DNA of 64,000 bases, taken from NCBI RefSeq assembly GCF_932294415.1, contig NC_065535.1, positions 93,946,862 through 94,010,861 of the forward strand, in the 5' to 3' direction. This document shows positions 22,181 to 52,770 of this stretch, in pieces (the first letter of the stretch is position 1; every line of letters starts with the position of its first letter). A program made the translations under genes and the position numbers. The notes below the pieces were generated by a model, which saw nothing but the letters and a program-made list of their open reading frames with translations, searched no databases and was not told the DNA's origin. The stretch comes from Quercus robur. Lineage: Eukaryota; Streptophyta; Magnoliopsida; Fagales; Fagaceae.

Positions 22181-22751
22181 TGATGACGTCGAAAATTGTC
22201 ACCAATGGGTCACACCGTACTCGCGACTCGAATCGAACCTGCACGACAAGAACAATCGACGGACGTCCTTCACAGGGCACCGGTGTGGTGCCGGCCAAAG
22301 GTTCTCCGACGGTCAAGTTAGAATTATTCTTGTTTTTACTTAGAGCGTTAGAGAGGGTCAATTAAAGCGTACCTCGATTACTGTGGGTATTAGACCTTTT
22401 ATAGTGATAGAGGGTTGACTTTTCCTTTTTGGTTTTCACATCTTTTCAATGTGGGACTCTAGTCCCAATTCTTCTAAGCGTGGTGAGCAAGGATTCCCGT
22501 TTCCGGATCATGGGCCCTTATTGGGCCTGTCAGCGATGGACCTTCAACGCGCGTGGGATAGCCCTTGCACAGGCCCAACAGTCCCAACCCGTCAGGCCCG
22601 TTCAGGTAGCCCTTCAAGAACGGCCGTCAGGCCCGTTCAGGCGAGCCCGTCAATCAGGGCCGTCATGCCCGTTCAGGTGGACCCGTCAAGCAGGGACGTC
22701 ATGCCCGTCCAGGTGGACCCGTCATGTATTCCGCATTTCTAACCGTCTTCA
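22181..22751 (-). repeat. 3' LTR of Tat element
   Basis: 571 bp, starting TGAAGACGG and ending CATCA on the minus strand, preceded by the polypurine tract. It appears identical to the copy at 32292-32862. The U3-side half is rich in cccgtca/tgacggg repeats. Confidence 0.95.
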
Positions 22752-23059
22752 GTTGCCCCCTTCACCCCAATGGTCCGCCAGTTTTTAGGATATAGGATCA
22801 ATGGGGTGACGATCCTAAAGTGAGGGTATGACGGGTATTTTTACGACGGAAGGAGGCTCATGTGATGGGGAGTTCAAAGTTGTCATAACGGGTTTGACGG
22901 ATCAACACAAGATAGGATGACGGTTCAAATGAGGAGTCCGTCGATTACACCAATTACAGACAGGCTGTACGAAGGTAATTAATGCCGATGACACGTGTTG
23001 CAAGCTGATTGGACCTTGTCTCGGATCGAAGCGACGCTTCGACTTCCGTGCATCTCTCT

Positions 23060-23067
23060 TATAAATA
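23060..23067 (+). promoter_or_regulatory. TATA box of antisense gene
   Basis: tataaata at 23060-23067, plus strand, about 270 bp upstream of the antisense gene's ATG and about 160 bp upstream of its 5'-UTR intron. The spacing suits a transcription start near 23090. Confidence 0.65.
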
Positions 23068-23332
23068 ATGGAGAGATTCCTCTCATTTCTTCAGATTCAG
23101 TAGAAATCAAGCTGTCAGAGCTCACCCGTCACCCTTGTCAGAGCGTACCCGTCGTAATTTGCTGATCCGTTCATTTACCTTAGTCGTCAACGCCGTCCTT
23201 CGTCACTTCGTTGGCAAAACTGGTAAGTGTTCTTCTTAAAACTCATACTTGTTTTAATTTTCCTTACAATCCACATCCGTTATAGACACATAGACCGTCA
23301 GAGTCTTAGGCTCTTGTCATTTCGTGTAGGAA

Positions 23333-24163
23333 ATGTCTAGTGCGTCGAGTAATCAGTCAGTTATTCGTGACGGGGTGGATTACGAGGAAGTATATCCGTC
23401 CAGTCAACGAGAACAAGGTAGTCCAGATGATAGTAGTCCGTCCACATCTTCCTCGTCCTCAACATATGAGGATCTGGAGGTGGTTGATCCAGACGAGGGA
23501 CGTGGTGTTGGTGAGGATCAAGTTGTCAGATCCGTCATTGGTGCTGATGGGCTTAGGAAGTTCGTCATGCTACCAGAGTGGACGGTGAATTTCTTCACGT
23601 CCGTTATCAAGGAAAAGCACTTTAAGACATTTAGAGATAATTACCAACTTCCAGAGAATGTTACGATCCGTCTACCCTACAAATCAGAGAGGTGTTACTA
23701 TGACGGGGTAGAGGGAGTCGGGGTGTATGAGCAAATGTTGAAGGCCGGACTTAGATTTCCATTGAGTTCGCTTCACCGTTTGCTCCTCCGTCAGCTGGGG
23801 TTATCTGTGAACCAGATTTCCCCTAACGCTTGGAGAGTTTTTATAGCGATGGAGGTACTGTACGGTGCCATGTCCAACGGAGAAAGGAGGCTGACGGTTA
23901 GGGAGTTTTTCCACTACTACCATCCGGACGAGATTGACAAATCCAGGGGGATTTATAGCTTCGTCCCTAGGAGTCCGTTGCTGAAAGTAATCTATGATAC
24001 GCCGGACTCGAATAGGGATTGGAAGAGTCGGTTCTTCTTCCTAGAAGGCGACGGTTGGATGGGTCGTCCTGGGGAGACAGATTTCATGCCCGTCGACACT
24101 ACTTGGGGCATATTGGATCCGTCTAGTATGGACTATCCTCCAAACTCTAACATTACTAAGTTT

Positions 24164-24203
<40 letters not shown>

Positions 24204-25545
24204 AATATAATCTAACCGTCCTCTTTCTTCTTTTGCAGTTAGACGACGGCCCCAAATTGACCTTGAGGAGTTTGCTTTCATTGAGAAAATCCTTAAAAAG
24301 ACCAAGCCGGAGGAAAGGACTTGGGCGAAGCTGGTAACACTAAATACCATTCATTGGTATTGCGACGGACCGGAACCTACAGCGGCTGCCGTCAAGTACG
24401 AAACACAGATAAGGAGACGTAAGTTCATCACCCTTTAGTTAAAGAAATTGTGCATTTTATTTTTTGTTAATTAACTCCCCCGTCCACGTTTCAGAGATGG
24501 ACGATGCCAAGAGAAGAGCCTTGATTCGGTCAAAGGCTGCAAAGAAGACTGCTGACGACACTCCTCCTGCGACGGGCCCAAGCAATCCGTCTGCTAAGCG
24601 GAAGACTCAGCCCAAAGCGGACCGTCAGGCCAAGAAGGCCAAAGTGTCTCTAGATCCCGTCGTGGGACTCATGGCGGAGCCCCCGAAGACGGTCACTCCA
24701 ACCAAGCACGGGGTTGGCAAGGGTTTGATGAAAGGCCCGTCGAAGGTTGACGAGAAGCCGCCCGTCCTTCTTCGAGAGGATTCTAAGCATGCCTTAGAAC
24801 AGATTTCCTCCATCATCTCGGCGGAGGATTATGAAGACTTAGGCAACCACTCGACGGAGGCCATGGGGGAGACGGGCCTGTTTGCCATCACACAGGTAAG
24901 ATAGTTCGTCTACTATTCAAATGCAACTTAAATCATCTGTCGAAAGTTTGTTTTATAACTGTTGTGATTTTTCAGGCAATGGTCATGATGAAGGGGCTGA
25001 TGGGACGGTGCCTCAGCCAAGAGACGGCCTTGGATCGTGTACGGGCCAAGGCGGAGAAGACGGAGGAGGAACTCCTCCAACTGCGAAACTGGAGACCTAA
25101 AATAGAGAAAAAGCTTGAGCTGTCGGAGAAGGCAAGGAAGAGCCTTGAACAGACGACGGAGGAGGCAAAGAAGGCTCTAGAGAGCAAGGACAAAGAAATA
25201 GCCGAGCTGAAGAACGAAGTCCGTCAGGCTAAGGACGCGGCGGTCCGTGAATACCGTGACTCCGACGCCCTAATCACTGAGCTGGGCGATTCTTTCCATC
25301 AGGGCTTCATGGATGCCCTCCGTCAAGTCAGGCAAGCTTATCCAGACGTGGACCCTTCTAAGTTCAAAGTTGAAGACCCGGTCCAGTCATCCGTCGTGCC
25401 TGTTGCCTCTGAGGATACAGACGACCTCTTTGATGTCGACGACGCCGTTGTTGACGGGGCGCCTGCACCAGCAAAAGATGACCAAGCTGAGGCTGACACG
25501 GAGACAGTTCCACAGCCCGTCGATAACGCGGACAAGGCTCAGTAG
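23333..25545 (+). CDS. Antisense spliced gene of Tat element (aORF)
   Basis: Plus-strand gene lying against the direction of its host retrotransposon. Coding exons 23333-24159, 24243-24418, 24495-24895 and 24976-25545 join in phase to 657 codons ending TAG. A non-coding first exon is spliced at 23223-23329 (gtaagt...gtgtag) just before the ATG. Intron 1 uses the second AG of ttgcagttag to keep the frame. Residues ~78-270 (FVMLPEWTVNFFTSVIKEKH, VRLPYKS-like, LSVNQISPNAWRVFIAMEVL) resemble the plant putative gypsy-type transposon domain (Pfam Transposase_28) known in antisense ORFs of Tat elements. Exon 3 has a basic, nuclear-signal-like stretch (SAKRKTQPKADRQAKKAKV). Exon 4 is a Glu/Lys-rich coiled coil (ELLQLRNW to EVRQAKDA) with an acidic tail. 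Function unknown. No internal stops. Confidence 0.8.
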
Positions 25546-25904
25546 AAGGATTTTTATTTTTATTTTATTATTTTTCTTTTTGGAACAATTCTCATCTGTT
25601 GTTGATGATGTGTAAACATTGCCGTTTAATGGCCTATTTTGTTAAATGAATCCGTGCACTTAATTTTATATGTTTTGTCGTTGCTTGACCTGTTTACATC
25701 CGCTTGCGTATGAGTATGCTTTTGATCTTAAAAACTTATTCTTTGCAAGACCTGTGGAATGCTCCGTCCATCTTTTTGATACTACTTTGTTATGTAAGAT
25801 GATTAGTCCGTCTTCTTTGCTTCATCTTAATTCCGTCCACGTGTTGGACGATCCGTCCAACCTGTGAACTTTAAGGTTGTCATTTTGTGGACTAAGTTAT
25901 CCCC

Positions 25905-26800
25905 ATTTAGTATAGTCCGTCCACCTTATGGTGATCGTCCATGTAGGATGATCCGTCCATCTTGTGGACTTAAGGTGGACTTGAAGTGGTCGTCCATGCA
26001 GGATGATCTGTCCATCTTGTGAACATAAAGCGATCGTCTTAGCAGGATGGTCCGTCCAGCTCGTGGACTTATATTTTTCATCCGTCCATCTTGTGGACTT
26101 AAGGCTATCATCCGTGTAGGATGATCCGTCCACCTTGTGGATTTAAGGTTGTCATCCCTGTGGGATGATCCGTCCACCTTGTGGACTTAAGGTTGTCATC
26201 CCTGTGGGATGATCCGTCCACCTTGTGGACTTAGGGTGATCGTCCTTGTAGGATGATCCGTCCATATTGTGGACTTCATATTGTATCCGTCCATCTTGTG
26301 GACTTTAAGGTTATCATCCCTGTAGGATGCTCCGTCCATTTTATGGACTTAAGGTTATCATCCATGTAGGATGATCCGTCCACCTTGCGGACTTAGGGTG
26401 ATCGTCCACGTAGGACGATCCGTCCATTTTGCGGACTTCATAGTTTATCCGTCCATCTTGTGGACTTAAGGTTATCATTCCTGTTGGATGATCCGTCCAC
26501 CTTGTGGACTTAGGGTGATCGTCCTTGTAGGATGATCCGTCCATATTGTGGACTTCATATTGTATCCGTCCATCTTGTGGACTTTAAGGTTATCATCCCT
26601 GTAGGATGCTCCGTCCATGTTATGGACTTAGGGTGATCGTCCTTGTAGGACGATCCGTCCATCTTGTGGACTTCATAGTGCATCCGTCCATCTTGTGGAC
26701 TTTATTTTCTGCTCGTCCATCTTGTGGACTTATGGTTATCACCCCTGTAGGATGATCCGTCCACCTTGTGGACTTTATTTTGTTTCCGTTAACTTTGTGG
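25905..26800. repeat. Hairpin-rich minisatellite in Tat element
   Basis: About 20 diverged copies of a 45-60-bp unit centred on gatccgtccaccttgtggac, with linkers such as ttaaggttatcatccctgta. The core gtccacctt-gtggac is itself an inverted repeat, and gatcgtcc...ggacgatc gives a second dyad. The array lies exactly between the 3' ends of the antisense gene and gag-pol, so both transcripts would run into it from opposite sides. Confidence 0.9.
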
Positions 26801-26997
26801 ACAATCGCAATGACATACATTCAAGTAGAAGATCAAAATTGCACCTGACTATAGAAATGCGTAAAGGAAAAGTGCCTGCCCCCTTGGGCTTAAAAAAGGC
26901 ACGTCAATATTGTAGCAAAAATATAGTTAAACAGTTGAAAGAAAAGTTAATATAATGCCAAAAAGTCTTAAAAGAAAAACTGGTTGTCGTGTCGCTA

Positions 26998-29900
26998 TCA
27001 CTGGTAGTATTTCCTCAAGTGCTCGGCATTCCACGGATGTGGTAGCTTTTCTCCGTCTATTGTCTCCAGGTGGTATGTCCCTTTCCTTTTCCATGACGTA
27101 ACTCTGTAGGGTCCTTCCCAGTTGGGGCCTAGTTTTCCCTGTGTAGGGTCTCTAGTTGTACCCATGACCCTCCTGAGTACGAGGTCTCCTACTTGGAAGC
27201 TTCTCTGTCGGACCCGGGAGTTGAAATGTCTGGACATGCGATCCTGGTATCTAGCGATCCTCTGCTCTGCTGCCGACCTGACCTCATCTATAAGGTCCAG
27301 CTGTAGCCTCATGGATTTGTCATTCCTTCCCTCGTCGTGGTTGTGAACCCTGTAGCTTGTGAGCCCAACTTCCGCTGGGATGACTGCCTCGCTCCCGTAT
27401 GTCAGTCGAAACGGTGTCTCTCCTGTCGGAGTCCTCGCCGTTGTCCTATATGCCCACAGTATGCTTGGCAGTTCTTCTGGCCATATGCCCTTTGCCCCCT
27501 CGAGCCGAGTCTTGATAATCTTTAGCAGGGATCGGTTTGTGACCTCAACCTGACCGTTAGCCTGAGGATGGGCGGGGGACGAGTAGTGGTTTTTTATTCC
27601 TAGCTGTGAGCAGAAATCACGGAAGGGGCCGTTATCGAACTGCCTCCCGTTATCTGAGACAAGGACTCTAGGAATACCAAACCTACATACTATGTTCCGC
27701 CAGACAAAACTTCTAATGTTCTTTTCTGTAATGGTGGCCAAGGCTTCCGCTTCTACCCATTTCGTGAAGTAGTCAATGCCCACTACCAAGAACTTTAGCT
27801 GCCTTATCGCCGTTGGGAAAGGTCCCATGATGTCCAGTCCCCACTGAGCGAACGGCCATGGAGCCGTTATGGGGGTTAGCTCTTCAGCTGGCTGTCCGAT
27901 AAAATTGCTGAACCTCTGGCATTTGTCGCATCTTTTAACGTAGGACTCAGCATCCTTTTGCATGGTCGGCCAGTAATACCCAGCTCGTAACAGTTTGTGC
28001 ACCAATGACCGCGATCCAGAATGATTCCCGCATATTCCTTCGTGTACTTCCCTCATCACGTAGTCTGCCTCTTCAACCCCGAGACATCTTAGGTAAGGAC
28101 GGGAGAAACCTCTCTTGTAAAGAATGTCTTTTATCAAGACGAACCTTGCCGCTCGGACTTTTAACTTTCTCGCTGCCTCCTTCTCTTCAGGCAATATCCC
28201 GTCCTTTAGGTATGAAGTTATCTGCGTAGTCCAGTTTCTTTCGGAGCGTATCTCCTGCATGTTGTCGGGGTCTATTAGCGGAAAGATTTGAACAAAGGAA
28301 AGCACATTACCCGGTGTTATCATATGTTCTGCTGAAGCGGCTTTGGCTAGCCGATCAGCGGGTTCGTTGTCTCCCCTGGGGATCTGGACGAATATTGCTT
28401 TTAGCCCGTCGACTCTAGCCCTCACTTGATCAAGATATCTCTTCAACCTTTCCCCTTTGCATTCATAATCTCCGTTTACTTGATTGGTCACGACTTGAGA
28501 GTCGCAATGCACGACCACACTTTCAGCTCCGGCGGCTTTGACTAGGTCGAGTCCTGCTACCACCGCTTCGTATTCTGCTTCGTTGTTGGTAATGGGGAAG
28601 TCGAGACGGACCATAGATTCAATCTCGTCTCCTTCAGGTGACAGCAATATTATGCCGGCTCCTCCAACTCGCTTATTGGATGATCCGTCGGTGTAGATGT
28701 TCCACTGGGGGGGTTCTTCTGCCCCCTTGTCCGCGTCATGCGTAAACTCTGCTATGAAGTCGGCTACAGCTTGTCCTTTAAAGGCCACACGTGGGCGGTA
28801 TTTGATGTCAAACTCACTCAATTCTATTGCCCACAGCGTCAGTCGACCTGCGGCCTCAGGATTACTTAGTGCCCTTCGCAAGGACTTGTCGGTCATTACG
28901 TTCACGGTATGGGCTTGAAAGTAGGGCTTGAGCTTGCGAGCCGCCGTGACCAACGCAAAAGCGAGTTTCTCCATAGGTTGGTATCTTTTCTCGGCACCGC
29001 GGAGCGCCCGGCTGGCGTAGTACACGGGCTTCTGTGCCCTGTCCTCCTCTCTGATTAAGGCCGCGCTGACGGCCACAGTGGAGACGGCCAAATAGAGGAA
29101 GAGCTCTTCACCTGGTTGCGAGGGGCTCAGTAGAGGTGGTGAAGATAGATAGGTTTTTAACTCCTCGAATGCTCGTTGACACTCGTCCGTCCACTCGAAT
29201 GACTTTTTCAATGTTCGGAAGAAAGGTAAACATTTGTCCGTCGCTCTCGACACGAATCTATTCAATGCCGCTACCTTGCCGTTAAGGCTCTGTACTTCCT
29301 TCACGTTTCTCGGGGGGGCCATCTCCATTATGGCTCGGATTTTGTCCGGGTTAGCTTCAATCCCCCTTTGAGATACCATGAATCCTAGGAATTTTCCTGC
29401 CGTTACACCAAACGCGCACTTTCCTGGATTGAGCTTCATGTTGTAGGATCGAAGTGTGCCGAATGTTTCCTTGAGATCTTCCAAATGGTCTTCCTCCTTC
29501 CGGCTCTTCACCAGCATGTCGTCGACATAAACTTGGACGTTCCTCCCGATTTGCTGTGCGAACATCTTGTTCATTAGTCTCTGGTATGTTGCCCCTGCAT
29601 TCTTCAGACCGAATGGCATTACTTTGTAACAGAAGAGACCTTGACTGGTTACAAACGAAGTCTTCTCCTGGTCGTCCTCGTGCATGCGGATCTGGTTATA
29701 ACCCGAGAAAGCATCCATGAAGCTTAACAATTGGTGTTGAGCCGTCGAGTCCACTAGGATGTCGACCCTTGGAAGGGGATAGCTATCTTTGGGGCATGCT
29801 TTGTTAAGATCGGTGAAGTCCACGCACATCCGCCATTTGCCACTCGTTTTCTTCACCATTACCACATTCGCCAGCCAATCGGGGTAGTAGACTTCCCTGA

Positions 29901-32229
29901 TGAAGCTTGCATCTTGGAGTTTGCGGACCTCTTCCGCTATTGCTTGGTCTCGTTCCGGGGCGAATACTCTCTTCTTTTGTCGGACGGGTAGAAACGAGGG
30001 CAACACGTTCAACTTATGTACCATGACCGAGGGATCGATTCCTGGCATATCGTCATGGCTCCAGGCGAACACATCCTTATTGCTTCTCAAGAAAGCCACG
30101 AGCTCTTGACGGATTGCGGGTTTTGCAAGCGTTCCGATCCTGGTGGTTCGGTCTGGATTGGAACCGTCGAGAGTTATCTCCTCTAGCTTCTCTGTAGGTT
30201 CTGTCGTCGTTCGGTGTTTTTCTATGTTCAAAGCCTGGATCTGGTCTTCCACCTCCATCATAGCTACGTAGCATTCTCGTGCGGCAATTTGACTTCCGCG
30301 TAGCTCTCCTACCCCATACTCTGTTGGGAACTTGATCATCAGGTGGTAAGTTGATGTTGCCGCCTTCCACGAGTTGAGCGTGGGTCGCCCAATAATAGCA
30401 TTGTAGGCTGACGAGCAATCGACCACCAAGAATGTTACGTCCTTGGTGATTTGTTGTGGGTAATCTCCTACCGTCACCGATAACGTGACCGCGCCCAAAG
30501 GGAATATTCTACTCCCTCCGAAACCAACGAGCGGGGCGTTTGTTGGTATCAGCAGCTCCCTATCAATCCTCATTTGTTGGAACGCCGGATAATACAAGAT
30601 GTCGGCCGAACTACCGTTGTCGACCAACACTCGGTGGATGTTGTAATCGCCTGCCCGCAAGGTGACGACGAGGGCATCGTCGTGTGGATGGTGTAGGCGC
30701 CTTGCATCCTCTTCCGAGAACCCGATGATAGGGCCTTCCCTTCTTGCCATCTTTGGCACTGTGCCTGCTAATTGGACATTCTGTACCATCCGAAGATATG
30801 TTTTGCGAGCCTTTTTTGACGATCCGGCCGCACCTGTTCCTCCAATTATCATCCTTATGTCCCCCAATGGGGGCCTTGGTCGCTCGTTCTCTCGGCGGGG
30901 GTGTTGTTCTTGTGGGGGTTGATCCGTTCTCTCCTTACTAACGAACTTCTTCAATTTCCCTTGTCGGATAAGGGTTTCGATTTGTTGCTTCAAATCATAG
31001 CAGTCGGCCGTGTCGTGACCATGGTCACGGTGGAAGCGGCAATATTTGTCTCTGGACCTTTTGTTGGGGTCACTCTTCAGCTTTCCCGGAAACGTCAGGG
31101 ATCCTTCGTCCTTAATCTGCATTAGGACTTGGTCTATCGAGGCGGTCAACGGAGTGAAACTTGTGAACCTTCCGCCCATTGGTTTTGGGCGTCTCTCCTC
31201 CCTTCGGTCTCCCATCCGTCCTCTCTTCCGCCCCTGGTCCTGTCGGGGGTCCTCTTGTCTGTCCCTTTTCTTGGGTCTGTCTTCTCGGGCTAACAACGCG
31301 TCTTCAGCGTTCATGTACTTGGTGGCCCTGTAAAGCACCTCTGACATGGTCTTTGGGTCGTTTTTGTATAGGGAGAACAAAAACTTACCCCCCTTCAGCC
31401 CGTTCGTGAACGCTGCCACCAATATCTTGTCGTCGGCTTCGTCGATCGTGAGCGCTTCTTTATTGAAGCGTGATATGTAGGCCCGTAACGTCTCCTCCTC
31501 TCTCTGCTTGATATTCATTAAACAAGCTGTGGACTTCTTATACCGATGTCCTCCGATGAAGTGCGTAGTGAACTGAGCGCTCAGCTCCCTGAAGGTGCCG
31601 ATGGAGTTTGGTGTCAGCCGGCTGAACCAAATCCTTGCCGCGCCCTTCAGGGTTGTAGGGAATGCCCTACACATAATTGCGTCCGCCACTCCCTGAAGGT
31701 GCATCAGGGTCTTGAAGGTCTCTAGGTGATCGAGGGGGTCCTTGATTCCGTCATAGCTTTCCATGCTCGGCATGCGGAACTTACTCGACAGGGGGAAGGA
31801 GTTGACGGACGCCGTAAATGGCGAGTCAGTCCGGTTGACAAGGTCGTCAAGATCACTGGACACTCGCCCCTTGAGAGCGTTCATCAGGACTTCCATCTGT
31901 TCCTTCATCGCCTGCATCTCCGCGATGATGGGTTGTGGAGCTGTGTCCGTCACTGAGGGGATGCTAGCGTCCCGTCGCACTTGTTTGCTCGGGGCGTTAC
32001 TCTCCTGTGGTCCGTCATTATTTCTCCTTTCCTCACTGTTCCCTTCTTGATCTTCTCCTTGGCTATTCACCGCTGCACTCTTTTGATTCAGCTGCTCTGT
32101 CAGGTCGTGGTTTTGTTTGGTGAGGCGCTCCACGGCTGCGGCGAGCGTCTTGACCTGTCTCTCAAGGGCAGTTGTAGGGGCTTCTTCTTGGACGTCATTT
32201 GTGGTTGCCATCGAGCGCGTGAGTACCAT
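26998..32229 (-). CDS. Gag-Pol polyprotein, Ty3/gypsy Tat lineage
   Basis: One uninterrupted 1,743-codon frame for capsid, protease, reverse transcriptase, RNases H and integrase. Gag is at residues ~150-310 (GAARIWFSRLTPNSIGTFRE), followed by an atypical zinc knuckle CRFHRDHGHDTADC (397-410; Cys-His-His-Cys). Protease motif DNGS is at 537-540. RT spans ~780-960 with YVDD at 901-904. The Ty3-type RNase H lies at ~1040-1160, and a second, archaeal-like RNase H at ~1175-1300 begins NIYTDGSSNKRVGGAG. Integrase has a zinc finger H1396/H1403/C1434/C1437 and catalytic D1466, D1526 and E1562. No chromodomain is obvious. All key residues seen are present. The start ATG at 32229 lies only 62 bp past the 5' LTR; a second Met is at codon 7. 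Gag and Pol share one frame, so any level control is not by frameshift. Confidence 0.95.
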   Translation of the reverse strand: MVLTRSMATTNDVQEEAPTTALERQVKTLAAAVERLTKQNHDLTEQLNQKSAAVNSQGEDQEGNSEERRNNDGPQESNAPSKQVRRDASIPSVTDTAPQPIIAEMQAMKEQMEVLMNALKGRVSSDLDDLVNRTDSPFTASVNSFPLSSKFRMPSMESYDGIKDPLDHLETFKTLMHLQGVADAIMCRAFPTTLKGAARIWFSRLTPNSIGTFRELSAQFTTHFIGGHRYKKSTACLMNIKQREEETLRAYISRFNKEALTIDEADDKILVAAFTNGLKGGKFLFSLYKNDPKTMSEVLYRATKYMNAEDALLAREDRPKKRDRQEDPRQDQGRKRGRMGDRREERRPKPMGGRFTSFTPLTASIDQVLMQIKDEGSLTFPGKLKSDPNKRSRDKYCRFHRDHGHDTADCYDLKQQIETLIRQGKLKKFVSKERTDQPPQEQHPRRENERPRPPLGDIRMIIGGTGAAGSSKKARKTYLRMVQNVQLAGTVPKMARREGPIIGFSEEDARRLHHPHDDALVVTLRAGDYNIHRVLVDNGSSADILYYPAFQQMRIDRELLIPTNAPLVGFGGSRIFPLGAVTLSVTVGDYPQQITKDVTFLVVDCSSAYNAIIGRPTLNSWKAATSTYHLMIKFPTEYGVGELRGSQIAARECYVAMMEVEDQIQALNIEKHRTTTEPTEKLEEITLDGSNPDRTTRIGTLAKPAIRQELVAFLRSNKDVFAWSHDDMPGIDPSVMVHKLNVLPSFLPVRQKKRVFAPERDQAIAEEVRKLQDASFIREVYYPDWLANVVMVKKTSGKWRMCVDFTDLNKACPKDSYPLPRVDILVDSTAQHQLLSFMDAFSGYNQIRMHEDDQEKTSFVTSQGLFCYKVMPFGLKNAGATYQRLMNKMFAQQIGRNVQVYVDDMLVKSRKEEDHLEDLKETFGTLRSYNMKLNPGKCAFGVTAGKFLGFMVSQRGIEANPDKIRAIMEMAPPRNVKEVQSLNGKVAALNRFVSRATDKCLPFFRTLKKSFEWTDECQRAFEELKTYLSSPPLLSPSQPGEELFLYLAVSTVAVSAALIREEDRAQKPVYYASRALRGAEKRYQPMEKLAFALVTAARKLKPYFQAHTVNVMTDKSLRRALSNPEAAGRLTLWAIELSEFDIKYRPRVAFKGQAVADFIAEFTHDADKGAEEPPQWNIYTDGSSNKRVGGAGIILLSPEGDEIESMVRLDFPITNNEAEYEAVVAGLDLVKAAGAESVVVHCDSQVVTNQVNGDYECKGERLKRYLDQVRARVDGLKAIFVQIPRGDNEPADRLAKAASAEHMITPGNVLSFVQIFPLIDPDNMQEIRSERNWTTQITSYLKDGILPEEKEAARKLKVRAARFVLIKDILYKRGFSRPYLRCLGVEEADYVMREVHEGICGNHSGSRSLVHKLLRAGYYWPTMQKDAESYVKRCDKCQRFSNFIGQPAEELTPITAPWPFAQWGLDIMGPFPTAIRQLKFLVVGIDYFTKWVEAEALATITEKNIRSFVWRNIVCRFGIPRVLVSDNGRQFDNGPFRDFCSQLGIKNHYSSPAHPQANGQVEVTNRSLLKIIKTRLEGAKGIWPEELPSILWAYRTTARTPTGETPFRLTYGSEAVIPAEVGLTSYRVHNHDEGRNDKSMRLQLDLIDEVRSAAEQRIARYQDRMSRHFNSRVRQRSFQVGDLVLRRVMGTTRDPTQGKLGPNWEGPYRVTSWKRKGTYHLETIDGEKLPHPWNAEHLRKYYQ

Positions 32230-32272
32230 GTAACTCCTTTATCTAGGAAATGTTACCGTATCCGGTCGTCTT

Positions 32273-32290
32273 TCCCACAGACGGCGCCAA
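32273..32290 (-). promoter_or_regulatory. Primer-binding site of Tat element
   Basis: The minus strand reads ttggcgccgtctgtgggaa directly inside the 5' LTR. TGGCGCC at the start is the 3' end complement of a tRNA acceptor and is usual in Tat and Athila elements. I have not assigned the tRNA. Confidence 0.8.
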
Positions 32291-32291
32291 C

Positions 32292-32862
32292 TGATGACGT
32301 CGAAAATTGTCACCAATGGGTCACACCGTACTCGCGACTCGAATCGAACCTGCACGACAAGAACAATCGACGGACGTCCTTCACAGGGCACCGGTGTGGT
32401 GCCGGCCAAAGGTTCTCCGACGGTCAAGTTAGAATTATTCTTGTTTTTACTTAGAGCGTTAGAGAGGGTCAATTAAAGCGTACCTCGATTACTGTGGGTA
32501 TTAGACCTTTTATAGTGATAGAGGGTTGACTTTTCCTTTTTGGTTTTCACATCTTTTCAATGTGGGACTCTAGTCCCAATTCTTCTAAGCGTGGTGAGCA
32601 AGGATTCCCGTTTCCGGATCATGGGCCCTTATTGGGCCTGTCAGCGATGGACCTTCAACGCGCGTGGGATAGCCCTTGCACAGGCCCAACAGTCCCAACC
32701 CGTCAGGCCCGTTCAGGTAGCCCTTCAAGAACGGCCGTCAGGCCCGTTCAGGCGAGCCCGTCAATCAGGGCCGTCATGCCCGTTCAGGTGGACCCGTCAA
32801 GCAGGGACGTCATGCCCGTCCAGGTGGACCCGTCATGTATTCCGCATTTCTAACCGTCTTCA
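32292..32862 (-). repeat. 5' LTR of Tat element
   Basis: 571 bp, bounded by TG...CA. It holds the element's promoter. On the minus strand there is a TATA-like ctataaaag near 32510 (its complement reads cttttatag), followed about 50 bp on by the gtacgcttta region. Confidence 0.9.
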
Positions 32863-33489: not shown

Positions 33490-36400
33490 TAGGGGTGGCA
33501 AATGGGCGGGTTGGGTCATAAATGGGTTGGGTCATAGATGGGTTTGGTGTATCATTACCCATATATCCATTTATGACCCGTTTATATATAAATTAATTAT
33601 CCATTACCAACCCAACCCATTTAATAAGTAACCCACCCATTTAACCCAATATGACCCAAATACCTCTAAAACTTCTTGAATACCCTCTTGACCTCCAAAA
33701 TACCCATAAATACCTAAAATGATGCAAATACCCCTAATCTTCCAAAATTACCAACATACCCTTGGACATCAAAAATTATCCCCAAAATCTCTAAAATTAG
33801 CAAAATACCCATGAAACCTCTAAAATAACCAAAATACCCCTGATATCTCTAAAATCACCAAATATGCTTAAAAACCACTAAAATGACCAAAATACCGTCT
33901 GAAACCCAAAAAATGACCAAAATACCTCCAAAACTCAAAAAATGACCAAAATACCCCCGAAACCTAAAAATTACCAAAATACCCTCCAAAACCTAAAAAA
34001 TGACCAAAATACCTCCAAAACCTAAAAATGACCAAAATACCCCCAAAACCCAAAAAATGACCAAAATACCCCCAAAACCCAAAAAAATGACCAAAATACC
34101 ATCAAAACCTAAAAATGACTAAAATACCTCCGAAACCCAAAAAATGACCAAAGTACCCCCAAAACCCAAAAAATGACCAAAATACCCCCAAACCTAAAAA
34201 TTACCAAAATACTCCTGAAACCCAAAAAATTACCAAAATACCCCCAAAACCTAAAAATGACCAAAATACTTTCAAAACCCAAAAAATGGCCAAAATACCC
34301 TCGAAACCCAAAAAATAACCAAAATACCTTGAAACCTAAAAAATTACCAAAATACCCCCGAAACCCAAAAACTAACCAAAAAACCCCCCCCAAAACTTAA
34401 AAATTACCAAAATACCCTCGAAACCCAAAAAATTACCGAAATACCCCCAAAACCTAAAAATGACCAAAATACCCCCAAAACCTCAAAAAATACCAAAATA
34501 CCCCCGAACCTCAAAAAATACCAGATATCCTTGAAACCCAAAAAATGACTGAAATACCCTCGAAACCTAAAAATGACCAAAATACCACCAAAACCTAAAA
34601 AATTACCGAAATATCCCAAAACCTAAAAATTACCGAAATACTTCTGAACCCTAGAAATTTACCGAAATAACCCTAAAACTAAAAGATGACAGAAATGCCC
34701 TTGTAACCTAAAAAATGCTAAAATACCCTAAGAATCTAAAAGATGATCAAAATAACCCCGAAACCTAAAAAATTACCGAAATTCCCTCGAAACCTATAAA
34801 TTGAATGAAAGACTCTCAGAACCTTTAATTTGTCAAAAATATCCTTGAAACATCCAAAATACCCCGAAACCTCTATTTCGGTAATTTTAGATGTTTCAGG
34901 TGTATTTTGGTCATCTTACATGTTTAGGGGCATTTTGGTCATAATTTGGGTTTCAGGGGTTTTTATCGATCATTTTTTTAGGTTTTGGGGTTATTTTGGT
35001 CATTTTATTTTTTAGGTTTTTGGGGGTATTTCAATCAATTTTTAGGTTTCAGGGTATTTTGGTAATTTTTTTAGGTTTTTGGGGTATTTCAATTATTTTT
35101 TAGGTTTTAGAGGTATTTCAGTCATTTTTTAGGTTTATGGAGTATTTTGGTAATTTTTTAGGTTTAGGGAGTATTTTGGTAATTTTTTAGGTTTTGGGTG
35201 TATTTTGGTAATTGTTAGGTTTTTGGGGTATTTTGGTCATTTTTTTAGGTTTTTGGGGTATCTTGGTCATTGTTTTAGGTTTTGGGGTTATTTTAGTCAT
35301 TTTTTAGGTCTTGGGGTATTTTAATCATTTTACAGGTTTCAGAGGTATTTTGGTCATTTTTTAGGTTTCGAAGATATTTTTGGTAATTTTAAGGTTTCAA
35401 AGGTATTTCGGTCATTTTTAAGGTTTAGGAAGCATTTTGATCATTTTTTAGGTTTAGGAAGCATTTTGGTCATTTTTTGGGTTTTTAGGTATTTTGGTAA
35501 TTTTTGGGTTTTGGGGATATTTTGGACATTTTAGAGGTTTGGGGGGGGGGGGGGGGGGGGGGATATTTTGCTATTTTAGAGGTTTTGGAGGTATTTTTCT
35601 CATTTTGTGGGTTTTGAGGGTATTTTGGTCAATTTTTGAGTTTTGGGGATATTTTGGACATTTGAGAGGTTTTGGGGGGTATTTTGCTCATTTTAGAGAT
35701 TTTGGAGGTATTTATGTCATTTTGTGGGTTTTGGGGATATTTTGGTCATTTTTTGGGTTTGGGGGGAATTTTGGTCATTTTTTGGGTTTCGAGGGTATTT
35801 TTGTCATTTTTTGGGTTTTTGAGGTATTTTGGTCATTTTTAGGTTTTAGGGGTATTTTAGTCATTTTTTGGGTTTCAGAGGTATTTTGGTCATTTTTTAG
35901 GTTTTGGGAGTATTTTGGTCATTTTTTTGGGTTTCAGGGGTATTTTGGTTATTTTTTGGGTTTTGGGAATATTTTGGTCATTTTTAGGTTTCGGGGGTAT
36001 TTTGGTCATTTTATGGATTTTGGTGGTATTTTAGTAATTTTTAGGTTTTATGGGTATTTCGGTCATTTTTTTGGGTTTTGGAGGTATTTTGGTCATTTTT
36101 AGGTTTCAGGGGTATTTTGGTCATTTTTTGGGTTTTGGTGGTATTTTAGTAATTTTTAGGTTTTAGGGGTGTTTTGGTCATTTTTTGGGTTTCAGAGGTA
36201 TTTTGGTCATTTTTTGGATTTTGGGGGTATTTTGGTCATTTTTAGGTTTCGGGGGGTATTTTGGTCATTTGTTAGGTTTTGGGGGTATTTTGGTCATTTG
36301 CTGGGTTTTGAGGGTGTTTTGGTCATTTTTTTGGTTTTTGAGGTATTTTGGTAATTTTTAGGTTTTGGGGAGTATTTTGGTCATTTTATAGGTTTTAGGG

Positions 36401-36721
36401 GTATTTGGGTCATTTTTTGGATTTTATGGGTATTTTGGTTATTTTTTGGGTTTTGGTAGTATTTTGGTCATTTTTTAAGTTTCAGGGGTATTTTAGTCAT
36501 TTTCTAGAAATTTAGATTTTATATTGTTTATTTAAATTTTAGATGGGTTTAGTGGGTATTAGTGGGATTATCCATTTAGACCCATCTAAATTATTTAATT
36601 AAATAACCAAATGGGTCTTTACCCATTTAACCCAAATATTCAAATGGGTTGGATTAAGAATTATTCAAATAAGGTGGGTAATGGGTGGGTTCATGGATAT
36701 GGATAAAAATTGCCACCCCTA
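33490..36721. mobile_element. hAT-like fold-back element built of opposed ~28-bp arrays
   Basis: The termini are taggggtggcaa and its inverse ttgccacccct-a. The 8-bp target duplication actgtagc is at 33482-33489 and 36722-36729. The ~170-bp subterminal parts (gggttgggtcataaatgg; cccatttaacccaa) are also inverted. The interior consists of a left array of a ~28-bp unit (gaccaaaatacccccaaaac) from about 33660 to 34865 and a right array of its reverse complement (ggtattttggtcattttt) from about 34880 to 36510. The dyad centre is near 34870 (gaaacatc ... gatgtttc). No transposase is present. A 22-base G run interrupts the right arm near 35540-35562. Confidence 0.9.
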
Positions 36722-37735: not shown

Positions 37736-38407
37736 TGTAAGGACACGATTTGTAACGACCCGTAACAGTGTTGGGTTCGTACGTAAAAAAGCCCAAACAA
37801 TATCATTTGTAGAGCGTGGGTTTGAAAGGCTAGGTCTCAGTCACCAGACGGTGGGTTTTTCATGGTGTTCCTACATGATTAAGTCATTTTCGCCCTAGGA
37901 ATCTTTCTCCTGGAGGCGGGTTAGGAGGCTCTGGTTTTTGGCCATTTTCCCCAGCCACCTCTATGAATTGCTTATTTTTCCTTTTATACTAGCCTGTGTT
38001 TTTTATCCTTCGTTCACGTGTAGGATCGACATTCCAAGACTGATACTTGTCCCATCAGCCCATACCCAAGGTGGTTGGGGGTGGTTGTAAAAGCTGGAGA
38101 GTATGGCTCTGTCAGGTGCAGAGTATTGAATGGCAGTAAGGGCAGCTTTCCTTGGTCGTTATACTTTCCAGCATACCCTTTTCTATTGGCACAGATATTT
38201 TTAGATTTTTTTCCAAGTTGTTTCTATACCATTTTTGCCCTTTCTTCTTGTGAGATCTCGGACATGCCAAGGATTGAATCGTCCTCGGCTGTGTCCCAAG
38301 GCTATTTTGTACTTGTATTACCGATCCTGGATTATAACCTTCCTCGGCTCGGGCCTTTAGACCCCAATGAATAAATGGGTCAGGGCCACAAACTATTGGG
38401 CCCCACA
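37736..38407 (-). repeat. 3' LTR of LARD-like element
   Basis: 672 bp; on the minus strand starts TGTGGGGCCC and ends CCTTACA. An open frame of 99 codons on the plus strand is shared with the other LTR and is probably a by-product. Confidence 0.9.
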
Positions 38408-38747
38408 ATAGCCCCTCAAAATCCTGTTGTCCGACCTCTTGGTTGGGAGAAGAGGATTTTGGTAATGCCGAGCCTTTATTACGGCTCGTTTAACTCTGTC
38501 TTTCATTAATGCTAGTGTCTCTTCATCTACCCAGGAAACATACCGGACCACGAGACATTCCTATGAATTCATTCACAATGCGTCCCCGCCGTTTGATTAT
38601 CCGAAACGCGCCTTTAATGACTTACCTTTACGAGACTATTTAAATTCGATGGTTTGTTGACGATGTAGGGAAGTGGAACGGGTACATTCTCGTTTACAGA
38701 TTTTCTTGGAAATCCGGATGGATTAAATACCTTCCGCTCTACCCTTC

Positions 38748-41029: not shown

Positions 41030-41701
41030 TGTAAGGACACGATTTGTAACGACCCGTAACAGTGTTGGGTTCGTACGTAAAAAGGCCCAAACAATATCAT
41101 TTGTAGAGCGTGGGTTTGAAAGGCTAGGTCTCAGTCACTAGAGGGTGGGTTTTTCATGGTGTTCCTACATGATTAAGTCATTTTCGCCCTAGGAATCTTT
41201 CTCCTGGAGGCGGGCTGGGAGGCTCTAGTTTTTGGCCATATTCCCCAGCCACCTCTATGAATTGCTTACTTTTCCTTTTATACTAGCCTGTGTTTTTTAT
41301 CATTCGTCCACGTGTAGGATCGACATTCCAAGACTGATACTTGTCCCATCAGCCCATACCCAGAGTGGTTGGGGGTGGTTGTAAAAGCTGGAGAGTATGG
41401 CTCTGTCAGGTGCAGAGTATTGAATGGCAGTAAGGGCAACTTTCCCTGGTCGTTATACTTTCTAGCATACCCTTTTCTATTAGCACAGATATTTTTAGAT
41501 TTTTTCCCAAGTTGTTTCTATACCATTTTTGGCCTTTTTTCTTATGAGATCTCGGACATGCCGAGGACTGAATCGTCCTCGGCTGTGTCCCAAGGCTATT
41601 TTGTACTTGTATTACCGATCCTGGGTTATAACCCTCCTCGGCTTGGGCCTTTAGACCCCAATGAATAAATGGGCCAGGGCCACAAACTATTGGGCCCCAC
41701 A
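41030..41701 (-). repeat. 5' LTR of LARD-like element
   Basis: 672 bp, about 4% different from its partner at 37736-38407 by eye. The adjoining sequence at 41011-41029 (cctacagacggcgccaaat) is the inverse of the primer-binding site. Confidence 0.9.
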
Positions 41702-42047
41702 CTATGATTTCAAATTCAATTGCTGAAGCAAGACTTACTAGATGGAAAATACAAGTCTCTTTTGTTATTTTGAGTTGTACGTAATAAATATTATTCAAGG
41801 ATACCGTGTTTCCTACATCGTTCTACATTAATTTGAGTCTTAAGGATATGTTAATTGAGGTTTTTCAAGCCCATAACTATTGTTATGTGGGAGTTGAATT
41901 TTATATAGAATTAATAATATGGAGTCATCACTCCCCTAGAAGCCTCACTTTGTGTCTGGGAATAAATATTTATTCCCAATCCAAAGAAGAAACAGTGTTA
42001 AGCACCTCTCTTTTACTCCATTCAAAGATTGTCTTGTTATATATATA

Positions 42048-45984: not shown

Positions 45985-46826
45985 CAGGGCCGGCTCAAGG
46001 CCTAGGCAAGTTAGGCCTAGGCCTAAGGCCCCACCCAAAAAAAAAAAATTCCTTAGGAAAAAAAGGCCCCATTTTTTATAGTTAAAAGTCCAAATTTTTA
46101 TACAATCATATATATTTTCTAAATGTTGTACATTTTTTTTATTAGTGATATACAAATTTTACTATTGGCTTACAAATTGCCATGTTATTAATCACAAAAA
46201 ACGTAATATAAACATTCATTAGTTAAATTGATGAAGTTTATCAATGAGAGACAATATCACATTATATTTTGAACATTTTATAGTGCTTTTAATTAGCGCA
46301 TTTTTCTTTTTCATTTCTATTAAGACCCTCAAAGTACGAGACCAATAGAATCTTAACTCAATTGAAACCCTAAAATATTTCAAAAAGATGTTGCAAATGT
46401 GTTAAATCATCAATTATAGATTAATCTCCCCTAAGAGTTTGAGACTTTGATTTTTGTAAATTAATATCCTACATAACCATACACCAAATAATATTTATCT
46501 CTCTCTCTCTCTTAAAATCAAAACATAAAATTAAAAATTAGATTACAACTTTATTTAACTATGCATCGTCTTATATCCAAAAAAAGTATCTTTTTCAATC
46601 ATAATATATTTTTATTTCTTTTTATTAATATTTATAATTCAACTATGATATTCAATTCTCTATATGAAATTAACATTAGTCTAGTTGGTATTATTTATGT
46701 ATTTAATGTATCAAATTAACCTTAATTTGATTAGTATTAAATAATTTTGTTTAATTAATATTTACATATTAAAGGCCCCATATAAATTTTTCGCCTTAGG
46801 CCCCAAATTATGTTGGGCCGCCCCTG
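45985..46826. mobile_element. Non-autonomous hAT element
   Basis: 842 bp with an exact 8-bp target duplication, tctttaac, at 45977-45984 and 46827-46834. The termini are inverted repeats (cagggccggctcaa versus caggggcggcccaa). The inside is AT-rich without a transposase frame, with ggccttagg-type repeats near both ends. It interrupts the protease pseudogene's C-terminal half. Confidence 0.9.
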
Positions 46827-47398
46827 TCTTTAACACGTTTAGCATGAATAGTTTTCAATAAGGCCAATACCAAATCTTTATGAAACTCAGGTGGAAGAAA
46901 GGTGTAAGTGGTGCCCGAGTCAATAATCATTTTACCCACATTCCTAGCACTGGCCTTGGAAGAAGCTCTATAGGCAAACGTTGTGTTCCCAATACTAATG
47001 CCCTCTAGAGTAACGTAATAATATGTGGAAGGCTTTTTTGCAACTAAGGGTGTTGAAACCACTCCTTTGCCAGAAACCAAGCCATTGGAACCAAAGTTAA
47101 TCTTGATTGAAACATTTGAAGTTGTGGGAACTAAACAATAAGAAAATTTTCCACCAATGTACTTGTTTAGTTGAGAGACTAGAGAAAGAGGGCCACCTCC
47201 TAGGCCAATTATGCCAGAGCTTTCCTCATCAAATATACCCTCATTATTGTTGCTGCAATCGAAAAAAATCCTTGGTATTTTGACCCAATGGCCAGTAGTC
47301 GAGCCAAATGTTAAGGTTTCAACTCCAAGATCACCACTAGTGTATGAATTGTCTCCATAGGTATAATTATTGAAGCAAATGTTTCGTTCACTACGTGA

Positions 47399-47680
47399 GC
47401 GTTTGCGCTCCGCGTTTGCGTCCACGTTTTGATGAGTTCACGTTTTCTCCTTTTTTTTCTTTTTTCTTTTTTTTTTTGGCCCGCAATTGTTGACTTTGGG
47501 GGGACAAATTTTACTGTTATGAACAGTAAATACACTGTTCATGTACTGTACTGACACTGTTCATGCACTAAAAAATATTAAAAATGGGTCCCACGGTACT
47601 ATTTACACATTTAAAAATTATTTTACTACAGTATTTTCAGTTTTCAGTTTCAGTAACAATAAACTCAATCCAAACGGACC
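47399..47680. mobile_element. MITE in protease pseudogene
   Basis: 282 bp with imperfect 8-bp flanking repeats ctacgtga (47391-47398) and ctacatga (47681-47688). It begins gcgtttgcgctcc and ends ccaaacggacc. It carries the atgggtcccacggtactatt phrase shared with the elements at 4372 and 10540. Confidence 0.65.
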
Positions 47681-48229
47681 CTACATGAAACAGCTTTTCT
47701 ATCCAAATTTATGCGAGACTTTGACTTGCAGGAAACGTTACAATATGTTGAAGAATACTGAGGATCGAAGAGAGGAGGGTCTTGCTTGTAACATTTTATA
47801 CATGGCTTACATTGTGTCCATGTTAGATCACCACCTGTATCCGCAACGCCAAGCACACCAAGGGAAATCTTCATGAGGTATTCTCCCGAGTTACTAGCTG
47901 TTACGTTTGATTGGTTTGAATTGCGAGATTGTAAGCTTGCCTTGAAACGATTAGCCCTTGAAATGGAACGAGCAAAAGCATTATGCAAGCGATCAAAATG
48001 GGTGTGAGAGGCATTGGCATTGTAATACGGAGATAGTGTCGAATCACGATGTATGAGATCAACAGTGAAACCACTACAGTTAGTGGCTTCTGTGAATGAA
48101 AATACCAGTATTACTGCTAAGTAGAGAGTAAAGGGTTTAATCTCAAAGCAGCAGCCATGACTTTGACAGTATGATAAGGAAAGGTTGAATGAGATATGAT
48201 AAAAACACATTGGGCTATACAGAATTTAT

Positions 48230-51396: not shown

Positions 51397-52707
51397 CTAG
51401 TGCTTGGTGCAATCAGCAGGCAGGAAGGACACTTTCTTGGCCTTGAGGTCATATCCCACCAAGAAGTTTATCTGAGCCAAGTTCCCAAATATGGCCACAC
51501 TACCAGATGGTATCATGGTGAAGCAAACCAAATCATCATCCATTCTAGCAAATGTATTGATTGGCTTCAACTTCACATCAGCACCAGTAAAATGAGCCGT
51601 GATAATGGGGATATCAATTTCATCTTTAGACCTGAAACAAAGACTAAGAACACCCCTCGGGTCACTAACACGTTCAGCATCAATAGCTTTCTCTACGGCT
51701 GATACCAAATCTTCATGAAATTCAGGTGGAAGAAGGGTTAAAGTTGTGCCTGAGTCAATAATAATGTTACCCTCATTACTAGCAACAGCCTTAGAAGAAG
51801 CCTTATAGGCAAACCTCTTGTTCCCAACACTAATGCCCTCTAGAGTAAGGTAATAGAATGTGGAAGGATCTTTTGCAACCAAGGGTGTTGAAACCACACC
51901 ATTGCCAGAAACCAAGCCATTGCTACCAAAATTAATCTTGCTTGTAACATTTGAATTTTCTGTGGGAACTAAACAATAAGAAAATTTTCCACCAATAGAA
52001 TTGTTTAGTTGAGAGACCAGAGAAAGAGGGCCACCTCCTAGGCCAATTATGCCTGATCCTGCCTCACTAAATGTACCATCATTATTGTGCCCGCACCCAA
52101 ATACAATATTCGGTAATGTGACCGGACGGCTAGTAGTTGAGCCAATGGTTAACGTTTCAACACCAAGATCACCATTAGTGAATGATTGGTCTCCATATGA
52201 ATAACCATACTGGCAGGTGTTTTTATCAGTGCCACAAGAGGCAGTGTCTAATGCCTTGCAAGGACTTGAATTGCAAGGCACGTTACCATATGTTGAAGAT
52301 TGCTGGGGATCAAAGAGAGGAAGGTTTTGCTTGTAACATTTTTCACATGGCTCACATTGTGTCCATGTTAGATCACTGCCTGTATCTGCAATGCCAAGCA
52401 CCTCAACTGCTGGGGTTCCAAGGGAAATCTTCATGAGGTATTCTCCGCCATTAGCTATTACGTTTGATTGGATTGAACTCTTAGATTTTAAGCTTGGCCT
52501 GAAATGATTAGCCCGTGAAATGGAACGAGCAAAAGCCTTATACAAGCGATCGTAATGGGTGTGAGAGGCATTGTACGATGGAGACTCTGTCGAATCACGC
52601 AGTATGAGATCAACTGTGATTCCACTGTAAGTTGCTTCTGTCAATGAAAGTAAAAGTACTACTAATAAAGTAGAGAGGAAAGTGTTTAATCTCAAAGCTG
52701 CAGCCAT
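51397..52707 (-). CDS. Aspartic protease, nepenthesin/CDR1-like
   Basis: A single-exon gene for a 436-aa secreted pepsin-type (A1B) endopeptidase. Residues 1-25 are a signal peptide (MAAALRLNTFLSTLLVVLLL). A short propeptide follows (VDLILRDSTESPSYNASHTH). Catalytic motifs are DTGS at 108-111 and DSGT at 318-321. The Cys-rich nepenthesin-type insert (WTQCEPCEKCYKQ through CGTDKNTCQYGYSYGDQSF) and the flap tyrosine region are present. The C-terminus is IFGNLAQINFLVGYDLKAKK. I chose the ATG at 52707 rather than the one 51 bp upstream because it starts directly with the hydrophobic signal. Length and motifs are as usual for the family. A TATA-like box (ctataaatt, minus) lies about 65 bp upstream. 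Arabidopsis CDR1 relatives act in the apoplast in defence signalling; that role is inferred here. It has a broken paralogue 3.2 kb downstream in gene sense. Confidence 0.93.
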   Translation of the reverse strand: MAAALRLNTFLSTLLVVLLLSLTEATYSGITVDLILRDSTESPSYNASHTHYDRLYKAFARSISRANHFRPSLKSKSSIQSNVIANGGEYLMKISLGTPAVEVLGIADTGSDLTWTQCEPCEKCYKQNLPLFDPQQSSTYGNVPCNSSPCKALDTASCGTDKNTCQYGYSYGDQSFTNGDLGVETLTIGSTTSRPVTLPNIVFGCGHNNDGTFSEAGSGIIGLGGGPLSLVSQLNNSIGGKFSYCLVPTENSNVTSKINFGSNGLVSGNGVVSTPLVAKDPSTFYYLTLEGISVGNKRFAYKASSKAVASNEGNIIIDSGTTLTLLPPEFHEDLVSAVEKAIDAERVSDPRGVLSLCFRSKDEIDIPIITAHFTGADVKLKPINTFARMDDDLVCFTMIPSGSVAIFGNLAQINFLVGYDLKAKKVSFLPADCTKH

Positions 52708-52770
52708 GACTTGACAATATGAGAAGGAAAGGTTGAATGAGATGTGACAAAAACACATTGGACATTACTG

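Follow-up and report, generated by a model that had tools for sequence, protein, structure and literature searches.

An intron-bearing antisense gene and a dense CCGTC pentamer in a young oak retrotransposon: a candidate self-addressing circuit

Why does a retrotransposon carry a gene with introns on the strand opposite to gag-pol, and what might the product of that gene do for the element? This question is raised by a 64,000-nucleotide stretch of the Quercus robur genome (hereafter, the window). Its sequence supports the presence of a complete intron-bearing antisense gene inside an intact, young Tat element. Such introns would persist because the RNA copied during retrotransposition is the opposite strand, a logic that we consider sound.

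The host element is a complete LTR retrotransposon of the Tat clade (Ty3/gypsy) on the minus strand (22181-32862). Its 3' LTR (22181..22751, minus) and 5' LTR (32292..32862, minus) have the same sequence, with zero differences over 571 bp. TTCAT flanks the element on each side as a 5-bp TSD, and the inner LTR borders carry a PBS-like TGGCGCCGTC and a polypurine tract. These features support an earlier, sequence-only reading of this DNA, which had called the copy intact and young. Gag-pol is a single ORF of 1743 codons (26998..32229, minus). In a Pfam-type search of this ORF in three pieces, the domain order is gag, RT, RNase H, a second RNase H-like domain and integrase, with no retropepsin family listed. 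The last pol piece comprises RT_RNaseH (39-140), RVT_3 (180-298), and the zinc-binding (389-440) and core (459-555) domains of integrase. We infer that RVT_3 is the aRH, the additional RNase H that sits between RH and INT in Ogre and Retand and is their hallmark (PMC6317226). The region from pol to the 3' LTR (22752-26997, 4.2 kb) holds an antisense TRP28-type gene, and the gag-pol strand has no ORF of at least 150 codons across 22181-26998. Taken together, the extra RNase H-like domain and the TRP28-type antisense gene that follows pol give the element a Retand layout.

Other repeats and genes lie nearby in the window. Beside the element, 33793-36507 contains two 29-bp tandem arrays of about 1 kb and 1.6 kb, with AAAATGACCAAAATACCCCC and GTATTTTGGTCATTTTTTAGG units in opposite orientation. 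A 675-bp direct repeat (37736-38410 and 41030-41704; 96% identity, 3.3 kb apart) could be the LTRs of a short element. On the minus strand are duplicated TAXi-type aspartyl protease genes (46808-48210 and 51397-52758), one an intact 453-codon ORF and the other split in two ORFs.

The antisense gene, in our corrected model, has four coding exons, three coding introns and a 5'-UTR intron, giving 647 codons. Its candidate TATA box (TATAAATA, 23060..23067, plus strand) is the only TATA[AT]A on that strand in 22700-23333. The 5'-UTR intron (23223..23329, plus; GTAAGT...GTAG, 107 bp) ends 3 bp before the ATG at 23333, and the spliced leader, counted from an assumed start site at 23090, has zero upstream ATGs. 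On the same plus strand, the ATG opens the coding exon with the TRP28-type domain (exon 2, 23333..24125). This is followed by intron 2 (24126..24238; GTATGG...TTTTGCAG, 113 bp), a coding exon (24239..24418), intron 3 (24419..24494; GTAAGT...TTTCAG, 76 bp), a coding exon with a basic stretch (24495..24895), intron 4 (24896..24975; GTAAGA...TTTCAG, 80 bp) and a last coding exon with a coiled coil and an acidic tail (24976..25545; stop at 25543-25545). The TATA box and 5'-UTR intron that the sequence-only reading had seen against gag-pol were thus located, and its four exons do join in phase to the stop. Its count of 657 codons was revised to 647, with intron 2 now at 24126-24238.

Relatives, rather than phase, place the borders of intron 2. 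A script enumeration found eleven donor/acceptor pairs that keep the frame; therefore, phase alone cannot choose between them. The pair chosen originally (donor 24160, taa/GTTTCC; acceptor 24242, GTTAG; slashes mark exon borders) has the weaker donor and acceptor and was rejected on relatives, and the preferred pair is donor 24126 (cta/GTATGG) with acceptor 24238 (TTTTGCAG). Four relatives (P0001, P0002, P0003 and P0008) pass directly from VDTTW to RPQ and lack the ten additional residues, and another (P0124) shows an unspliced read-through at this border, not a join. Read-through into intron 2 is seen in 96 of 119 exon-2 relatives and is absent in 23 (these being the best-listed of 2197). At the N/GT codon, 87 of the 96 read-through rows have G, S, R or C, an upper count given that serine has other codons too, and 9 have another residue; the residue after it is M, I or T in all 96. 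As expected where an exon turns into an intron, identity to the window product falls from 0.82 at residues 251-260 to 0.39 at 261-270 and 0.08 at 271-280. Intron 2 contains a run of 37 T (24166-24202), in which the unspliced ORF continues as poly-Phe.

Relatives also bear on the other introns. An anchor for intron 4 was present in 73 of 241 fetched proteins: 28 are joined, 43 read through with V first, as CAG/GTN predicts, and 2 do otherwise. For intron 3, both sides were covered in 15 rows, with the joined spacing in 8 and a longer spacing in 7. A Quercus suber model (P0007) joins an exon of another gene to E-MSSASSNQ, a chimera that would imply the same acceptor position for the 5'-UTR intron.

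The antisense product is homologous to the TRP28 (PF04195) proteins known from Retand elements. A search with the full product gave 11 homologues (E 1.8e-240 to 2.1e-74), a profile of the product 524 and an exon-2 profile 2197 (the best 120 listed for each profile); in each search, scoring was limited to the nearly 8000 candidates with the most words in common. Among the matches listed, the named ones belong to Quercus, Castanea and Lithocarpus. The PF04195 model, put forward earlier as a check, scores this copy below the Pfam gathering score of 26.2 (19.8 bits for the full product, 21.7 for exon 2), while 57 of 62 aligned relatives match PF04195 with an E no higher than 0.01 (best 4.5e-8). 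One bearer of PF04195 (P0005) has 53% identity across 66% of the query.

A basic stretch (KRK...KADRQAKKAK) is common to relatives, and the predicted model of P0001 contains a helix at 373-501, with a block of pLDDT above 90 across residues 421-470; the basic stretch and coiled coil read from the letters thus hold as predictions. The P0001 model is confident in the coiled coil only. The model of exon 2, which bears the TRP28 domain, is of low confidence (mean pLDDT 40.3), and no DNA-binding fold emerges from it. The product had no match among solved structures, NCBIfam returned coiled-coil matches only, all sub-threshold, and DUF1985 and DUF287 were absent from the 7 families found at E up to 1. 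No DNA of relatives was found in the viral contig or genome contig collections.

Capture of a host gene was considered and rejected. Most of the named hits are uncharacterised proteins of Quercus, Castanea and Lithocarpus, and the two named host genes, P0007 and P0011, resemble fusions with element exons. P0007 is a Quercus suber 2-isopropylmalate synthase 1 ending in a TRP28-type exon, and P0011 is a Quercus lobata SNC1-like NLR starting with element exons 4-5; each may reflect exon capture or an annotation artefact.

The pentamer CCGTC/GACGG is concentrated within the element, which contains 110 of the 121 sites in the whole window. Its density per kb is 17.5 in the LTR, 15.5 in the leader, 15.1, 16.7, 22.4 and 15.8 in the exons, 8.8 in intron 2 (one site), 11.3 in the 3' UTR and 22.0 in the tandem array. 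It is 0 in the 187 bp adjoining pol, 4.0 in gag-pol, 0.1 in the left flank and 0.3 in the right flank. Means from a first kind of shuffle are 0-2.2 for every short element part; gag-pol holds 21 sites against summed means of 12.0, and the flanks hold 3 against 5.8 (left) and 8 against 12.9 (right). The 3' LTR has 8 sites in U3, upstream of the sense TATA (near 22403, minus, derived from LTR position 349), and 2 in R/U5. Another 5 lie in the region of the polypurine tract side and antisense promoter (22752..23059), so that 13 sites separate the sense and antisense TATA boxes. The tandem array (25901..26810) has 20 CCGTC, adjoined in most units by a GTCCA-N5-TGGAC dyad. CCGTC is kept in 19 of 22 dyad-anchored units, and the 20 dyad-like sites listed have 4-6 of 6 arm pairs at spacings of 29, 44 or 73 bp.

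Coding constraint does not account for this density. We made 2000 synonymous shuffles per CDS, keeping protein sequence and codon usage fixed. In the antisense CDS, 33 sites stand against a mean of 10.57, and none of its 2000 shuffles reaches 33; gag-pol shows a mild excess (21 against 11.18, reached in 1 of 2000). The antisense CDS offers 66 synonymously possible sites and realises 33 of them, where 10.6 are expected; gag-pol offers 103 and realises 21, where 11.2 are expected. These densities differ (Fisher p 1.9e-7). CCGTC/GACGG is the top pentamer of the antisense CDS and ranks first in the non-coding parts minus the array (25 vs 3.0 expected). With tandem repeats masked, 22181-25900 has 51 sites vs 7.4 (z 16.1); in 13 other segments (up to 3.72 kb), top pentamers have z 3.4-10.3, the highest on a small expectation (7 vs 0.4). 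Composition, amino-acid sequence and codon usage leave the pentamer density unexplained in the LTR, leader, antisense gene and array.

What might read such a word? Sites in the antisense CDS fall in all reading frames, with 17 CCGTC to 16 GACGG, and one-mismatch neighbours of the pentamer are near expectation. This points to recognition as double-stranded DNA rather than RNA. CGTCA is a TGA-type bZIP site. As the core word, CGTCA was rejected: CCGTC scores higher, and the base after CCGTC is mixed. An exact short word that is independent of frame and strand, dense outside gag-pol, and found notably between the two promoters and in the array, looks like a protein address.

By analogy with VANC, the antisense protein is a candidate reader of the pentamer. 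We propose as possible, while stopping short of calling it probable, that this TRP28-type protein binds CCGTC arrays and activates or un-silences its own element. The accessory gene, spliced to 647 codons, would be expressed against gag-pol from its own TATA promoter. Its protein may be nuclear and oligomeric, as the basic stretch and coiled coil suggest, and would bind CCGTC in double-stranded DNA; a published predictor assigned DNA-binding residues to TRP28 (PMC11963269). Two places would collect the protein: the group of sites that separates the sense LTR promoter from the antisense one, and the array further downstream. Transcription of its own family would be raised, or silencing lifted, with the pentamer as the address by which the protein finds its own copies. 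Three results count against this circuit. Gag-pol also has a mild pentamer excess. The TRP28 domain is poorly modelled, with no DNA-binding fold suggested and no match to a solved structure. Finally, sites fill the exons of the accessory gene, at residues that are not more variable in exon 2, where mean identity is 0.79 at realised and 0.64 at unrealised sites.

Could the pentamer instead serve a host protein? CCGTC may be a host-factor binding site exploited for transcription, with the antisense protein doing something else. The U3 cluster near the sense TATA fits such a host-driven promoter, and DNA binding by the antisense protein is itself a prediction. However, a promoter site needs neither 33 of the 66 possible sites in the accessory CDS nor 20 in the array, and we judge this explanation rather unlikely. 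The antisense protein might also act on the cDNA of the element, in nuclear import or integration within the pre-integration complex, and not on transcription. The published comparison is indeed with nuclear accessory proteins of retroviruses (PMC7264820), and cDNA carries the motif in double-stranded form; yet gag-pol, which is half of the cDNA, holds few sites, making a cDNA role very improbable in our estimation.

Two further explanations dispense with a DNA-binding protein. The pentamer excess could be a functionless by-product of mutation or repeat slippage, since part of it sits in tandem arrays and similar flanks (15-16 of 20 positions) occur at 4 of the 58 dispersed sites. The flanks of the remaining 54 are no more alike than random places; therefore, duplication fails to explain the dispersed sites. 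The excess also survives tandem-repeat masking and, with the protein sequence fixed, is present in every CDS frame, so that we think a by-product quite unlikely. Least probable among these explanations is that antisense RNA pairs with genomic RNA and tunes silencing, with the protein incidental. By the anatomy of the element, the transcript would complement the 3' part of genomic RNA, and PMC7264820 raises such an RNA role as a possibility, but the protein core and splice donors are conserved across many relatives.

How does a self-addressing TRP28-type protein compare with known systems? Antisense TRP28 ORFs are already known and are not new here. A 2025 survey of 63 clusters of Retand elements with recent activity found them in every cluster except two, and tandem arrays in about half (PMC11963269); this agrees with the sequence-only reading, which had noted antisense Transposase_28-type ORFs as known in Tat elements. 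Our element shares with Retand a 4.2-kb region from pol to the 3' LTR, with its antisense TRP28-type gene and an array adjoining pol, as well as a further RNase H placed after RH and before INT (PMC11963269, PMC6317226). It differs in its four introns with conserved donors, the word "intron" being absent from the main text of PMC11963269, and in its CCGTC saturation. We found no report of introns in Retand-type antisense genes in the non-subscription literature searched, and absence from print is not claimed. Novelty may lie in the conserved layout of several introns and in the saturation with CCGTC. Grande of maize offers another antisense accessory gene with its own promoter: gene23 is transcribed from that promoter and its product is reported to be nuclear, as told in PMC7264820. 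Ogre also has an intron in a plant Tat-clade element (PMC6317226, PMC12786077). That intron is on the sense strand between gag-prot and pol, whereas here gag-pol is one ORF and the introns are antisense.

A functional parallel is offered by VANC of the VANDAL transposons (PMC5735166). VANC proteins are likewise encoded by a TE, in an intron-bearing gene. They bind to short motifs that abound in the TE encoding them, some in tandem repeats of the same orientation, and they remove methylation. Here too, in one copy and one window, a short motif is dense in the element and rare outside. However, VANDAL is a DNA transposon and VANC has DUF1985/DUF287, which are absent here. VANC motifs are 8-9 bases and mostly non-coding, and those of VANDAL21 avoid coding regions, while the 5-base sites here also occur in exons and fill those of the accessory gene itself. 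Binding and demethylation were shown for VANC; their counterpart here is proposed from sequence. It is doubtful, if conceivable, that this element holds an LTR-retrotransposon counterpart of VANC, in which a spliced antisense TRP28-type protein reads CCGTC and un-silences or activates its own family. The role of the Retand antisense gene is given as unexplained in PMC11963269 and PMC7264820, and a motif that can be counted in sequence renders it testable. If the proposal is true, one shared function would account for both the antisense gene and the tandem arrays of Retand, and LTR retrotransposons would have independently built sequence-specific self-recognition like that of VANDAL transposons.
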